Position numbers and translations under genes: made by a program. From Nitrospinae bacterium RIFCSPLOWO2_12_FULL_45_22 (GTDB lineage: Bacteria > 2-12-FULL-45-22): a stretch of 15,841 nucleotides of DNA. Shown here one piece after another: positions 1 through 15,841 of the stretch (position 1 is its first letter; each line of letters opens with the position of its first letter). The notes under the pieces are model-generated. The model made no database searches, was not told the origin of the DNA, and was given only the letters and a program-made list of their open reading frames with translations. The stretch spans positions 7,723 to 23,563 of the forward strand of contig MHDQ01000300.1 in NCBI GenBank assembly GCA_001803565.1, read 5' to 3'.

Positions 1-1014
1 AAATATTGTTCCAGGAATATCCCCCGCTGGGCACCTATCTCTTTCCAGGGGTTTATTTACCACACAGCGGGTGCTGATGCGGTGCGGGAGGTGGCATTCG
101 CCTTGGCCCCAGCTATTGCTGTGACAGAGACTTGTATGGAACTGGGCCTACACCCGGATGAGTTTGTGTCCCGCTATGGCTTTCATTTTGCTGCGGATGA
201 CGATTTTTTTGAATCTATAGCCAAGATTCGGGCCTTCAGACGGATATGGGCAAAGATAGCTAAGGAGAGGTTTGGTTGTAAGAGCCCTAAATCCCTCCAG
301 CCTATCCTACAGATAGAGACCTCTACTACCTCACTGACAGCCCAGCAGCCCATGAACAATATTATCCGGGCTGCGTTGCAGACCCTGGCAGCGGTACTCT
401 CGAGCCCAAATTCTATCTGGACAACCCATTATGATGAAGCCCTCTCTATTCCAACAGAAGAATCAGCGGTCCTGTGTGTCCGGACGCAACAGATCATTTA
501 TCATGAGACCAAAGTAGCTAATGTAGTAGACCCACTGGGCGGCTCATACTATGTAGAATGGCTCACGCATAAACTGGAAGAAGAAATCACTAAACTCTTG
601 AGTAAGATTGATGAAATGGGTTTTTTCCAGTGCTGGCGTACCGGATGGTTCAGGAAAGAGACAGAAAAATCTGCTTATGAGTGGCGAAAGGGATTAGAAA
701 AAGGAGATAATATAAAAGTAGGGCTTAATAAGTACGTTACTGAAGGGGAGGCTAAAGTGCCTATATTCCGGGTTGATCCGCAGGTAGAAGAGATAGCTAT
801 TGAGCGGGTAAAGAGATTTCGGGCTGAGCGCAATAGTGACGTTACTCAAGCCAGCTTAAGAGAGCTAAAAGGGGTTGCCCGGCAAGTTAATCAGGACTGG
901 CCCCAGGGGGGAGACTTAATGCCGGCTGTGCTGAATGCCGTGCGGGCGGAGGCTACCTTACAAGAGATAATGGATGTGCTCAAAGGAGAATTTGGCTGGG
1001 GCTTTGTCTACTGA
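1..1014 (+). CDS. B12-dependent acyl-CoA mutase (methylmalonyl-CoA mutase type), large subunit, 5'-partial
   Basis: The frame is open from base 1, and the first in-frame residues (KYCSRNIPRWAPISFQG) already match the family, so the GTG at 82 is internal and the 5' part is cut by the window edge. About 337 residues remain of a usual 540-560. The family rearranges the carbon skeleton of acyl-CoAs using adenosylcobalamin. Visible family blocks are AGADAVREVAF, IWAKIAKERFG, SLTAQQP.NNI, DEALSIPTEES, RTQQII and VDPLGGSYYVE, then the typical C-terminal LMPAVLNAVRAEATLQEI. There is no B12 domain; that is the next gene, 82 bp downstream. The canonical GYHIREAGA is replaced by GFIYHTAGA, and several other positions that line the substrate or adenosyl pocket in methylmalonyl-CoA mutase differ (see findings). 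Membership of the fold is clear. The substrate is unknown; methylmalonyl-CoA should not be assumed. Confidence 0.9.
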   Translation, partial: KYCSRNIPRWAPISFQGFIYHTAGADAVREVAFALAPAIAVTETCMELGLHPDEFVSRYGFHFAADDDFFESIAKIRAFRRIWAKIAKERFGCKSPKSLQPILQIETSTTSLTAQQPMNNIIRAALQTLAAVLSSPNSIWTTHYDEALSIPTEESAVLCVRTQQIIYHETKVANVVDPLGGSYYVEWLTHKLEEEITKLLSKIDEMGFFQCWRTGWFRKETEKSAYEWRKGLEKGDNIKVGLNKYVTEGEAKVPIFRVDPQVEEIAIERVKRFRAERNSDVTQASLRELKGVARQVNQDWPQGGDLMPAVLNAVRAEATLQEIMDVLKGEFGWGFVY

Positions 1015-1020
1015 TTCAAA

Positions 1021-1075
1021 AAGCGATCAGCGAAATTGTTGTTGCTGAAAGCTGACGGCTGATTGCTGAACGCTT
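1021..1075. repeat. Short copy of the GTAAGCGTTCAGC-family inverted repeat
   Basis: The ends AAGCGATCAGC (1021-1031) and GCTGAACGCTT (1065-1075) are inverted copies with one mismatch. The right arm GCTGACGGCTGATTGCTGAACGCTTAC closely matches the right arms of the longer copies at 12747-12892 and 15475-15620. It fills most of the 82-bp gap between the two mutase subunit genes, so it would be transcribed with them. No clear flanking direct repeat is visible. Confidence 0.75.
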
Positions 1076-1096
1076 ACATTTTGGGGGAGTAAAAAA

Positions 1097-1492
1097 ATGG
1101 CTACCGGAAAAAAGATCAGGGTACTATTAACAAAATCGGCTATGGATGCCCATGATCGGGGTGTAAGGACCGTCGCGAGGACCCTACGGGATGCGGGTAT
1201 GGAGGTCATATTTACTCGCTTTGAATTGCCAGAAGATATTGTTAAGCCTGCCCAGGAAGAAGATGTAGATATAATTGGAATAAGCTCTTCTAATAGTGCC
1301 CATAACTACTTTGCCTCTGAGGTCAGGGAACTATTAAGGCAAAGAGATATGGGCCATATCCAGGTAATTTTAGGGGGAATAATACCAGAAGAGGACATCC
1401 CGGCACTGAAGGGGTTAGGTATCAAGGGGGTCTTCGGCCCCGGTACGCCTACCAGCCAGATCGTAGATTTTATCCGCTCGCAATTCACCTGA
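1097..1492 (+). CDS. B12-binding small subunit of the acyl-CoA mutase
   Basis: A 131-residue stand-alone cobalamin-binding domain that should pair with the upstream large subunit to form the holo-mutase. The base-off/His-on motif DxHxxG is intact (DAHDRG, residues 17-22; His19 would be the lower axial cobalt ligand). The GG of the nucleotide-loop pocket is also present (LGGIIPEEDIP, about residues 91-101), as is the closing FGPGT. The middle motif, normally SxL (GLSSLSGAH), reads GISSSNSAH, so the usual Leu is Ser. The start is an ATG preceded by GGGGGAG at a suitable distance. The length is normal for split mutases, as in archaea and many anaerobes. Its stop codon TGA lies in the outer arm of the hairpin that follows. 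Family assignment is secure; substrate specificity is not set by this subunit. Confidence 0.93.
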   Translation: MATGKKIRVLLTKSAMDAHDRGVRTVARTLRDAGMEVIFTRFELPEDIVKPAQEEDVDIIGISSSNSAHNYFASEVRELLRQRDMGHIQVILGGIIPEEDIPALKGLGIKGVFGPGTPTSQIVDFIRSQFT

Positions 1493-1596
1493 TGTTATTA
1501 CGTTATTGGGTTATTAGGTTATTATAGATGACCCATAACTCCCTCGCCTAATCACCCAATAACGTAATAACCTAATAACGTAATAACCCAATCAGG
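1488..1596. repeat. Long AT-rich inverted repeat between convergent genes
   Basis: The left arm from 1488 (CCTGATGTTATTACGTTATT, then GGGTTATTAGGTTATTA) is complementary to the right arm ending ...AATAACGTAATAACCCAATCAGG at 1596. A GTTATTACGTTATT unit is repeated in both arms, and a TGGG insert is present in only one. The outermost CCTGA/TCAGG bases contain the stop codon of the B12 subunit (1490-1492) and of the oppositely oriented SDR (1592-1594). Its position suggests it folds at the 3' end of both transcripts and may act as a bidirectional terminator or 3' stabiliser. No U-tract is present to prove termination. Confidence 0.8.
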
Positions 1597-12746: not shown

Positions 12747-12892
12747 AAGCGTTCAGGTATCAGCCGTCAGCTTTCAGCAAAGGTTTGGTGAGTAGTTAAT
12801 TGGTGAATGGTTAATTAGTAATACTCACCACTCACCAAGTGACCCATTAACCAGTAAAATGCTGACTGCTGATGGCTGAGTACTGAATGCTT
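12747..12892. repeat. GTAAGCGTTCAGC-family inverted repeat, long copy
   Basis: The ends AAGCGTTCAGGTATCAGCC (left, from 12747) and the complement of GGCTGAGTACTGAATGCTT (right, to 12892) form the arms. ACATTT occurs directly outside both ends (12741-12746 and 12893-12898), a possible 6-bp target duplication. The interior holds a second hairpin around TTGGTGAGT / ACTCACCAA and TGGTTAAT / ATTAACCA. The right end overlaps the stop codon of the minus-strand dehydratase gene. It separates that gene from the convergent cupredoxin-like gene. Confidence 0.85.
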
Positions 12893-14174
12893 ACATTTGC
12901 TGTGCCTCGAGCATGGTAAAGTAGTCATGGATCCTGGCCTTCATCTGGGAGGCTGGAACAATCATAGGATTACCGGCGTCCATATCCAGGATTAAGCTGG
13001 GGATGCCGGTATATCGCTTGACCTCTTCAATCACTACCCTGTTGCGGCCACAGCCGTGCTTACAGCCAAAATGGGCAAAATATATACAAGAATCGCACCG
13101 GGATTCTCTGGCCTTTTTCCCTATCTCCTGGGCAACCCAGTGATAGGGCATGATAGCGGTCTTTACCGCCAGGTTGGAACAAAAGGTCTTTCGGGCCAGG
13201 CACAAAAAGGGATCGCTGGTATCCATTACCGGCTCCAGGGGATAACTATTGGCCAAATCAACCGTTACTACTGCACCATATTCCTGCTCCATCCAGTCAA
13301 AGAGCTTCATATACCAGAATGGAGGAGCGCCATTAGTGACTATTCGATGTTTTTCAACTGGTACCACGCCCTCGCTGCGGTCGGCCTTAGCTTTAGTTTC
13401 TTCATAGAGGGCCTTCATAAATAGAGTTGTCTTCGGTAATCCTTCACTGGCCATGCGGGGGCCAAAAAAGGAGAAGGCATCCCGGGCCCCTAAAGGAGAT
13501 GGCACCCGGTCCCTCAGGTCCATTAGCTTCATAGAATATTCGTGACATTCAGCGGAATTCCTTAGCAATTCCCGGAGCCTATCCAGGTCCATCTTCTTAC
13601 CGGTTTGCTCTTCCAGGAACCGGACCATATCTTGCAGCTCGCGCTTGAAGTGCTCTATGGCTTCATCATCGAACCGATAGGGGAAATTGCAATAAAATAT
13701 AGGAGTATTATACATATCAGCCATGACGTCGAACATGGCTGATTGAGAGTCGCAGGGTTGTGGCCCGGCACAGACGATAAAATCTGGCCGCCCCACTAAG
13801 CCCGTTTGGGCTGCCCCTATCGTCGCAAGATGGGGCGAGCAAGATTCTTTATCAAAGCCATAAGCCTCGCCTAAATCAAAGTACTCATAACCACGGCCTG
13901 AGGCCAGAAGCTGGATAATATACTGTTCTACCACAAAGGGGACAATATCCATGGCCAGGACTATCTCCGGTGGGAACAATAAGCCAACCCAGGCTAGCTT
14001 CTTGCCTTGCTCCCGGGCGTAATAAATCCTCTCAAAGTATTCTTTCATTATCTCATAAAGGATCTCCTTGCTCTTAGGAATCTTAGGGTTTTGACGGGCG
14101 CTATTGATCCTCTGCTCAAACCCTTCAATCATACCCTCGATAGAATCTCTTTGCAAAAGGGCAGTTGTATCCAT
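12891..14174 (-). CDS. 2-hydroxyacyl-CoA dehydratase / benzoyl-CoA reductase family subunit (HgdA/BcrB-like)
   Basis: A 427-residue subunit of the family with ATP-driven, [4Fe-4S]-dependent radical dehydratases and class I aryl-CoA reductases. The N-terminal region includes GKKLAWVGLLFPPEIVLAMDIVPF (57-80), the family's first Rossmann-like segment. Likely cluster-ligand and conserved Cys regions are SCSPH (Cys112), VCAGPQPCDSQ (Cys135, Cys141) and a C-terminal Cys-rich block with Cys360, Cys363, Cys371 and Cys375. After this comes the typical ending GIPSLILDMDAGNP (390-403). Its ATG directly abuts the TAA of the 370-residue partner, and the ribosome site GGAGGAG lies within the end of that gene. 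The length fits BcrB-type subunits. The substrate cannot be read from the sequence, and no activator ATPase (BcrA/HgdC type) is present. The stop codon lies in the end of the repeat at 12747-12892. Confidence 0.88.
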   Translation of the reverse strand: MDTTALLQRDSIEGMIEGFEQRINSARQNPKIPKSKEILYEIMKEYFERIYYAREQGKKLAWVGLLFPPEIVLAMDIVPFVVEQYIIQLLASGRGYEYFDLGEAYGFDKESCSPHLATIGAAQTGLVGRPDFIVCAGPQPCDSQSAMFDVMADMYNTPIFYCNFPYRFDDEAIEHFKRELQDMVRFLEEQTGKKMDLDRLRELLRNSAECHEYSMKLMDLRDRVPSPLGARDAFSFFGPRMASEGLPKTTLFMKALYEETKAKADRSEGVVPVEKHRIVTNGAPPFWYMKLFDWMEQEYGAVVTVDLANSYPLEPVMDTSDPFLCLARKTFCSNLAVKTAIMPYHWVAQEIGKKARESRCDSCIYFAHFGCKHGCGRNRVVIEEVKRYTGIPSLILDMDAGNPMIVPASQMKARIHDYFTMLEAQQM

Positions 14175-15287
14175 TTATCTCTCCTCCTCAATCTGTTCAA
14201 AGAAGGCCTGGACCCGGGTCCTCAATTGTCCGGCCCCACCGCTCATATATTCCCTCTGTAAGCTTAAAACCGGGATGCCTATTTCGCTGAATCCTTTCTT
14301 GATAATAGGAAAGGCACCACCATAAGGCCCACAAAACTTTATATTCTCATGGATCAAACCCTCTACCCGGTACTCTTTGGCTAATCCCTGTAAGTGATCA
14401 ACCCGTATCTTTTGGGGGCGCATCCGGGCACAGGGTGTCCGGGTAAGATAGCGATTAGCTAATGCCTCTATAGGGTCTCCTTCTTCGGCCACCAGGTCCC
14501 AGAAATAACGGGTGCCATTACATAGATCATCCATTACCACTATGCTCCCTAGCTCTTCTATAGACCGGATATATTCAGGATCGTCCAGCTCACTGCCGGT
14601 GATCATTAGCCTGATCCGACCATTCTGTGAGCCTTTCCTGGCCTTGATCTCCTTAAGATAGACCTCTAGCATGGTGTTATATTCATGCTTGGGTATCACT
14701 AAGCCGGCCAAAACGACATCCATTATCTCTGCACCGCTAATAGGCGGACAGTCTTGCTTGCGTAATTCATATAGCTTCCTGAGTAAGTATCTAGTCTTGT
14801 TATAGACAGCAATGGCATCCTTTAACCCAGTGTCCGTTATTTTTGTGCCGAAGAATTCCTCTACCGTTCTTTTTAAAAGGATCAACTCCTTGGTAAAAAA
14901 ATCGAGGGTAGACTCACTCTGTTTGCAGGGAACCCCAATTATATGTTTAAAAGGGGTAGGCAAAAAGGCGCTCCAGACATCATAGAGCCGCCTCATGTGG
15001 TCACAGGCATTGATCCCCACATATCCATCCAAAAAACCGTAATTATGTCTAAATGCCTCTTCTAAACAGTTCCGGACAAAGGAGCAGATATTAGAATACA
15101 TATAGGCATCTGCAATAGGTGTTTCTTCTGCCCGGCCCAGGATTCTGATAGGCAATAGACCTGCCGCATATAATATCTCTTCTGGTACGTAAGTACAAGT
15201 CCAGCCTACTATCTTCTGCCCCTCTTCTTTCCTCTTCCTTAACAATTCATATCTATTGTTAAATAGCTTTCTAAATTCTTCTTGCAT
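14175..15287 (-). CDS. 2-hydroxyacyl-CoA dehydratase / benzoyl-CoA reductase family subunit (HgdB/BcrC-like)
   Basis: A 370-residue partner of the following gene, with the family hallmarks. These are GWTCTYVPEEILYAAGLLPIRI (28-49), YSNICSFVRNCLEEA (64-78; Cys68), GYVGINACDHMRRLYDVW (88-105; Cys95), RTPCARM (283-289; Cys286) and KFCGPYGGAFPIIKKGFSEIGIPVLSL (317-343; Cys319). The ending GGAGQLRTRVQAFFEQI is standard for this family. Cys68, Cys95 and Cys319 are the likely [4Fe-4S] ligands. The ATG follows GGAGGA at 7 bases. It is the first gene of a two-gene operon, in the same small-then-large order as bcrC-bcrB. Whether the enzyme dehydrates a 2-hydroxyacyl-CoA or reduces an aromatic CoA ester cannot be decided here. 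Confidence 0.9.
   Translation of the reverse strand: MQEEFRKLFNNRYELLRKRKEEGQKIVGWTCTYVPEEILYAAGLLPIRILGRAEETPIADAYMYSNICSFVRNCLEEAFRHNYGFLDGYVGINACDHMRRLYDVWSAFLPTPFKHIIGVPCKQSESTLDFFTKELILLKRTVEEFFGTKITDTGLKDAIAVYNKTRYLLRKLYELRKQDCPPISGAEIMDVVLAGLVIPKHEYNTMLEVYLKEIKARKGSQNGRIRLMITGSELDDPEYIRSIEELGSIVVMDDLCNGTRYFWDLVAEEGDPIEALANRYLTRTPCARMRPQKIRVDHLQGLAKEYRVEGLIHENIKFCGPYGGAFPIIKKGFSEIGIPVLSLQREYMSGGAGQLRTRVQAFFEQIEEER
14181..14189 (-). promoter_or_regulatory. Ribosome site embedded in the end of the upstream dehydratase gene
   Basis: On the minus strand GAGGAGGAG lies just before AGATAA-ATG. The upstream gene's TAA and the downstream gene's ATG are adjacent with no gap, which fixes the start at 14174 and implies translational coupling of the two subunits. 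Confidence 0.85.
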
Positions 15288-15474: not shown

Positions 15475-15620
15475 GTAAGCGTTCAGCCGTCAGCTATCAG
15501 TGGTCAGCAAAACAAACCAACCAACGGGTTATGAACAAGTCCCGGTCTTAGGAGCGGAAGGCTGGTTTTAGTATCTCCTTGTTTTTACTGAAAGCTGACG
15601 GCTGATAGCTGAACGCTTAC
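15475..15620. mobile_element. MITE-like element of the GTAAGCGTTCAGC family with 8-bp direct repeats
   Basis: This 146-bp element has perfect 13-bp terminal inverted repeats: GTAAGCGTTCAGC at 15475-15487 and GCTGAACGCTTAC at 15608-15620. Directly outside both ends is CCAGGTAG (15467-15474 and 15621-15628), the pattern of a target-site duplication. Inward of the ends, the arms carry CGTCAGC and TATCAGC units in swapped order. It has no coding capacity. Related copies lie at 1021-1075 and 12747-12892. Confidence 0.8.
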
Positions 15621-15841
15621 CCAGGTAGTATCCTTTTCAAAATTTCACCGCTTTCCTATCTTCTAAAACCATCCACCATACAACAATTTTCAGAAGCAAC
15701 TCCAGCCAATTTTCCTTGGCATGGAGTAGGGATGAGGAATAAAGTAATGTCGTTATCTTTCTGGTTAGTCAATATCAAATATTACTGGAGTTTCCCCAAA
15801 ATTTTATCCTTACTTTAGATAATTGTAGGTTCAGAGAGGTT

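Follow-up and report, generated by a model that had tools for sequence, protein, structure and literature searches.

A predicted B12-dependent acyl-CoA mutase from a Nitrospinae bacterium with an ordinary scaffold and an almost wholly replaced substrate pocket

The first gene of the analysed stretch of DNA (the window, 15,841 nt; G000:C300:7723-23563, from a 3.67-Mb assembly of 321 contigs) codes for what is predicted to be the large subunit, hereafter Q, of a two-protein AdoCbl acyl-CoA mutase; the substrate would be new and probably bulky, and the hydrogen-bond donor would have moved, a reading to which we give a probability of roughly 0.6. Judging from its alignments, the scaffold of Q is ordinary and its substrate pocket is almost wholly replaced.

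The open reading frame at window positions 1-1014 (plus strand) is open at its 5′ end and matches positions 189-512 of the PF01642 profile (E=3.7e-104, 349.6 bits against a cut-off of 22.1), which places it in the superfamily. It lacks a start only on account of a 7-N scaffold gap (L011:7716-7722) immediately before the first window base. The N-terminal part of about 200 residues, which the initial annotation had asked to be obtained, was recovered upstream of this gap as residues 1-223, with the frame starting at L011:7040. The 7-mer aaatatt occurs at both gap edges, each of which reads ...KY in translation, and the 7-N run is therefore probably a scaffolder gap placed over a true overlap. 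The full large subunit has about 560 residues, its frame being open on both sides of the gap, and it is followed by a small cobalamin-binding subunit (PF02310, E=1.1e-20), in which the DxHxxG motif of B12 subunits is present as DAHDRG.

G000:C300:7040-7715 (upstream of the window on the same contig, across the 7-N scaffold gap): large subunit, residues 1-223
Window 1-1014, plus strand: acyl-CoA mutase large subunit, C-terminal 337 residues (224-560), from the open reading frame and PF01642
Window 1097-1492, plus strand: small subunit of 131 aa, cobalamin-binding; DAHDRG cobalt-ligand motif and GG loop present

The C-terminal half of Q was modelled with AlphaFold (pLDDT 79.8), and the model matches methylmalonyl-CoA and 2-hydroxyisobutyryl-CoA mutase structures with VIA Z values of 22-23.5. 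Since the cobalt-ligand motif is kept and the model of the C-terminal half fits mutase structures, the radical chemistry of Q is most likely intact.

Pocket positions, numbered as in P. shermanii, were read by aligning the window part and whole Q with HMMER to solved chains, among them 1e1c, a P. shermanii methylmalonyl-CoA mutase chain carrying H244A, which marks position 244 directly. The alignment is gap-free through the GFI motif, with G242-Y243-H244 of the canonical enzymes reading G-F-I (the H244I codon occupies window nt 55-57).

Window 49-57, plus strand: Gly-Phe-Ile codons at positions 242-244 (Y243F, H244I), from the alignment to solved chains
Window 184-186, plus strand: His at position 287, candidate relocated hydrogen-bond donor, where Phe stands in 40 of 40 His244 rows
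Window 310-318, plus strand: Gln328 (canonical His) and Glu330 (canonical Gln), from the alignment
Window 409-438, plus strand: Asn361 (canonical Gln), Thr366 (canonical Asn) and the kept Glu370, from the alignment

All the substitutions proposed earlier by eye (Y243F, H244I, H328Q, Q330E, Q361N and N366T, with Glu370 kept) are thus borne out. The alignment of the upstream half adds R82A, R87Q, Y89G, S114F, S164V, T166G, T195H and Q197I. The Arg207 of the canonical pocket is absent, with M in its place, but the alignment around this position is gapped. Glu370, an adenosyl ribose contact, is retained in 56 of 56 aligned rows. Two other explanations of the missing His244 had been put forward with the initial annotation, neither of which holds. 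A two-residue shift that would make the YH next to GFI the catalytic pair is ruled out by the alignment and by a 59% identical orthologue, which has SFQGYGFQESGA in the same register, and an assembly error in GFIYHT is rejected, as the motif is 49 bases in from the window edge and shows no gaps against the same orthologue.

Among 35 canonical mutases, 104 columns are at least 95% invariant, 20 of them in a pocket list based on the 1REQ literature rather than on coordinates, and 84 outside it. Q keeps 62 of the 104, namely 59 of the 84 scaffold columns and only 3 of the 20 pocket columns (S239, S362 and E370). The changed columns (17/20 in the pocket versus 25/84 elsewhere; Fisher p=1.5e-5) indicate, as far as alignment columns go, that pocket change in Q exceeds chance. 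In the same test the control 2-hydroxyisobutyryl-CoA mutase 4r3u lost 3 of 20 pocket columns and 5 of 84 elsewhere, with no significant bias. Canonical mutases have a pairwise identity of 0.817 in the pocket versus 0.549 elsewhere, the order being reversed in none of 406 pairs; for the clade of Q the values are 0.316 versus 0.474, with the pocket lower in 72 of 78 pairs. The initial description of a rewritten active site therefore stands as far as the replacement of the pocket is concerned, but the pocket is a changing one across the family and no single new motif is fixed.

The orthologue mentioned above, L075 from genome G110, belongs to another phylum and was obtained, together with a set of sister mutases, from 395 genomes sampled in the phylum to which the Desulfobacterales assembly G063 belongs. 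It is 59% identical to Q overall and 61% over the window part, over which the sisters show 50-56% identity. A scan of an 84,980-species collection gave no close orthologue of Q (best match 47%), and plasmid records contained only mutases with less than 45% identity to it. Q and L075 have nine derived pocket letters in common (R87Q, S114F, S164V, T195H, S241Q, S285G, F287H, H328Q and Q330E), so this particular pocket appears to be held in two phyla; T366 is common to both as well. Q is very unlikely to be a paralogue that is decaying or has lost catalysis, as its missing catalytic His and numerous missing substrate contacts, in a genome with 11 mutase large subunits, might lead one to suspect: the frame is open on both sides of the gap, the codon-position GC resembles that of the housekeeping neighbours, dN between Q and L075 is 0.31 with dS saturated, the adjoining B12 subunit is intact, and both the nine common letters and E370 have been kept.

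In a tree built without the pocket columns, Q pairs with L075 (support 100/99), L084 joins them at 100/99, and a 15-row clade including all three is supported at 100/100. This clade excludes the methylmalonyl-CoA mutases of human, mycobacteria and Propionibacterium as well as the 2-hydroxyisobutyryl-CoA mutase group. Forcing Q into the 2-hydroxyisobutyryl-CoA mutase (4r3u) clade, with which Methylibium and Xanthobacter homologues cluster and Q does not, is rejected (AU p=5e-76). Placement inside a characterised clade, named initially as the outcome that would speak against a new specificity, was thus not found for the groups on the tree, where ICM-type enzymes are represented by unlabelled canonical sequences only and ECM, PCM, IaaG and alkylsuccinyl-CoA mutases are not among the rows. 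The separate deep clade initially named as the outcome in favour of a new specificity was recovered, with His244 absent throughout and Q328, E330 and T366 shared by Q and L075, but the residue at 244 is not conserved, being I, G, S, F, Y, V, A, N or E. R87, S114, T166 and T195 are changed in 18 of 18 clade members. A literature search, covering few subscription journals, found no paper describing the clade. On the tree evidence Q belongs to an uncharacterised acyl-CoA mutase family in anaerobic microbes, set apart from MCM and HCM.

Position 287 is non-Phe in 28 of the 32 rows without His244, mostly Gln, His or Tyr, and within the clade all but one of 18 rows have Gln or His there. A separate mutase group (L027, L028, L029, L030, L048, L065 and L068) has another non-canonical pair, Asp244 with Tyr287. 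The association between the two positions is strong by raw count, yet it amounts to at most two independent pairs given ancestry; co-evolution of 244 and 287 is accordingly put forward as a hypothesis, and common ancestry alone could explain the association. The earlier suggestion of either a different acyl-CoA or a different hydrogen-bonding scheme finds support here, the latter gaining weight from the change of F287 to His or Gln. In methylmalonyl-CoA mutase, His244 contacts the thioester carbonyl and helps to protect radicals, and the title of a study of 2000 by Thoma, Evans and Leadlay that bears on this role is cited in PMC11599936.

As in methylmalonyl-CoA mutase, the adenosyl radical would abstract a hydrogen from the acyl-CoA, a neighbouring group would shift by one carbon and the hydrogen would then be restored. 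With the short-carboxylate clamp Arg207, the wedge Tyr89 (now Gly) and several Ser/Thr lining residues gone, the acyl group is likely to be larger and less polar, and the pocket may fit a bulkier and more hydrophobic one, for example an aryl, alicyclic or alkyl-substituted acid. The hydrogen bond to the thioester, made by His244 in known mutases, would come from another part of the pocket, most likely from His287 (Gln287 in sisters), perhaps together with His195; both candidate donors are common to Q and L075. Loss of the protective His244 may be tolerable in an oxygen-free cell. The CoA binding mode of Q is uncertain because Arg82, Arg87 and Ser114 are also lost, positions that we take, on the basis of the literature rather than coordinates, to hold CoA. 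Along with S164, T166 and S285, these believed CoA-tunnel positions are altered across much of the clade, which is what would be expected if the clade bound a ligand that is not a classical acyl-CoA or used the scaffold for chemistry different from a 1,2-shift. We regard this as most improbable, as genes for acyl-CoA enzymes and CoA ligases abound at the sister loci and the parts that generate the radical are preserved.

The small subunit gene in the window is followed by an SDR and then by CoaX-, NadC- and ValS-like frames (named from reading the translations), with no catabolic genes; these neighbours being housekeeping ones, the context of Q is silent on its substrate. Between convergent genes at window 1495-1595 there is an AT-rich inverted repeat (gttattacgttattgggttatta / taataacctaataacgtaataac), which is probably a bidirectional terminator. 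A dispersed intergenic repeat, ctgaaagctgacggctgat.gctgaacgcttac, occurs at window 1042-1077 and 15476-15622, the latter copy having an inverted counterpart some 100 bases off and being MITE-like. The window also contains one of the genome's approximately 33 pairs of HGD-D genes, whose products resemble 2-hydroxyacyl-CoA dehydratase/benzoyl-CoA reductase:

Window 12891-15287, minus strand: HGD-D pair (HgdB- and HgdC-like)

A functional link between Q and this pair, about 12 kb away, was considered and dropped, since with 66 HGD-D genes in 3.67 Mb one within 15 kb is fairly likely by chance. Apart from these 66 genes and the 11 mutase large subunits, the genome (G000) encodes four PFL-like glycyl radical enzymes; very large sets of anaerobic radical and CoA enzymes were seen in G000, G259, G110, G234 and G282, with G259 (2.8 Mb) having 30 mutases, 21 HGD-D genes and 25 glycyl radical enzymes. 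Elsewhere in G000, locus L070 (G000:C318:1-14000) combines an HGD-D pair, a divergent mutase (Asn244) with its small subunit, a PFL-like enzyme, an activase-like radical SAM protein and two hydrogenase-maturation-like frames (HypA/HypB by eye), and L012 (G000:C286) has two tandem mutase large subunits (Glu244, Asn244) with two small subunits between them and an adjoining molybdopterin-oxidoreductase-like gene. Three HGD-D genes, L128 (G000:C148:3053-4153), L129 (C53:6777-7883) and L130 (C231:5340-6494), have an in-frame TGA at a Cys conserved in their relatives, possibly an iron-sulfur ligand; the homologue in the window has TGC at this site. Together with a tRNA-Sec scoring above the cut-off in G000, this suggests selenocysteine at the TGA position of all three, while the hairpins in the 48 nt 3′ of the TGA are only modestly better than shuffles.

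The sister loci are richer in catabolic genes. Clusters L077-L079 contain benzoyl-CoA-reductase-like pairs and BadH-/BadI-like, cyclohexanecarbonyl-CoA-dehydrogenase-like and MaoC-like hydratase genes, acyl-CoA dehydrogenases are found at sister loci as well, and the genes close to L075 include a phenylacetate-CoA-ligase-like one, another for an acyl-CoA ligase and others for LivK-type binding proteins. By analogy, these surroundings favour ring-containing or branched acids as substrates of the clade, which for Q itself is only a lead.

Q could alternatively belong to a group characterised elsewhere, with a known specificity, namely the (2-aminobenzyl)malonyl-CoA/phenylsuccinyl-CoA mutase IaaGH or an alkylsuccinyl-CoA mutase acting after fumarate addition. 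The bulky substrate of IaaGH (PMC8360864) resembles the one proposed for Q, and several of these genomes encode glycyl radical enzymes, one directly upstream of L084. The L084-side enzyme, however, scores best against the glycerol dehydratase/formate C-acetyltransferase group, at a level well below curated cut-offs, and lower against benzylsuccinate synthase; closer to dehydratases than to X-succinate synthases and apparently truncated, it was rejected as a fumarate-addition partner. No glycyl radical partner adjoins the window gene, and we consider membership of such a group unlikely, though deserving of real weight. Our preferred reading remains a new, probably bulky substrate. A tentative extension of it, for which we see some but clearly lesser prospects, is that Q represents a large new radiation of His244-free B12 mutases (up to 30 mutases per genome), holding the thioester from position 287 and rearranging many aromatic, alicyclic and branched acids in anaerobes, with Q itself catalysing a hitherto undescribed rearrangement of a carbon skeleton.

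The substrates of the acyl-CoA mutases known so far are few and small, and the pocket of these enzymes hardly varies. A clade in which the radical machinery is retained while the pocket changes faster than the scaffold would suggest that anaerobic degradation involves many carbon-skeleton rearrangements still to be assigned, and its members may serve as natural test cases for whether His244 acts in thioester stabilisation, in protecting radicals from oxygen, or in both. The closest solved relative of Q is 2-hydroxyisobutyryl-CoA mutase (4r3u, E=3e-106), which likewise has separate large and small subunits, the same fold and the same B12 chemistry parts but possesses His244, Phe287, His328, Gln330 and Asn366, all replaced in Q. 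Methylmalonyl-CoA mutase (1req, 2xij, 6oxc) shares with Q the fold, Glu370 and the cobalt-ligand motif of the B12 part, whereas Q is without Tyr89, Arg207, Gln197, Tyr243, His244, His328 and Gln330; at the diagnostic Tyr89/Arg207/His244 it has G, a residue other than Arg (M, in a gapped alignment) and I. The isobutyryl-CoA mutase pattern of Phe89, Gln207 and His244 does not fit either, Q having G89, no Gln207 and I244. The Desulfobacterota-group mutases L075-L079 and L082-L084 belong to the deep clade of Q, lack His244 and mostly have His or Gln at 287, although most pocket letters vary between subclades. By description, a possible analogue is IaaGH, an anaerobe's B12 mutase acting on a bulky aromatic dicarboxylic ester, which converts esters of the phenylsuccinyl-CoA and benzylmalonyl-CoA type into each other (PMC8360864).
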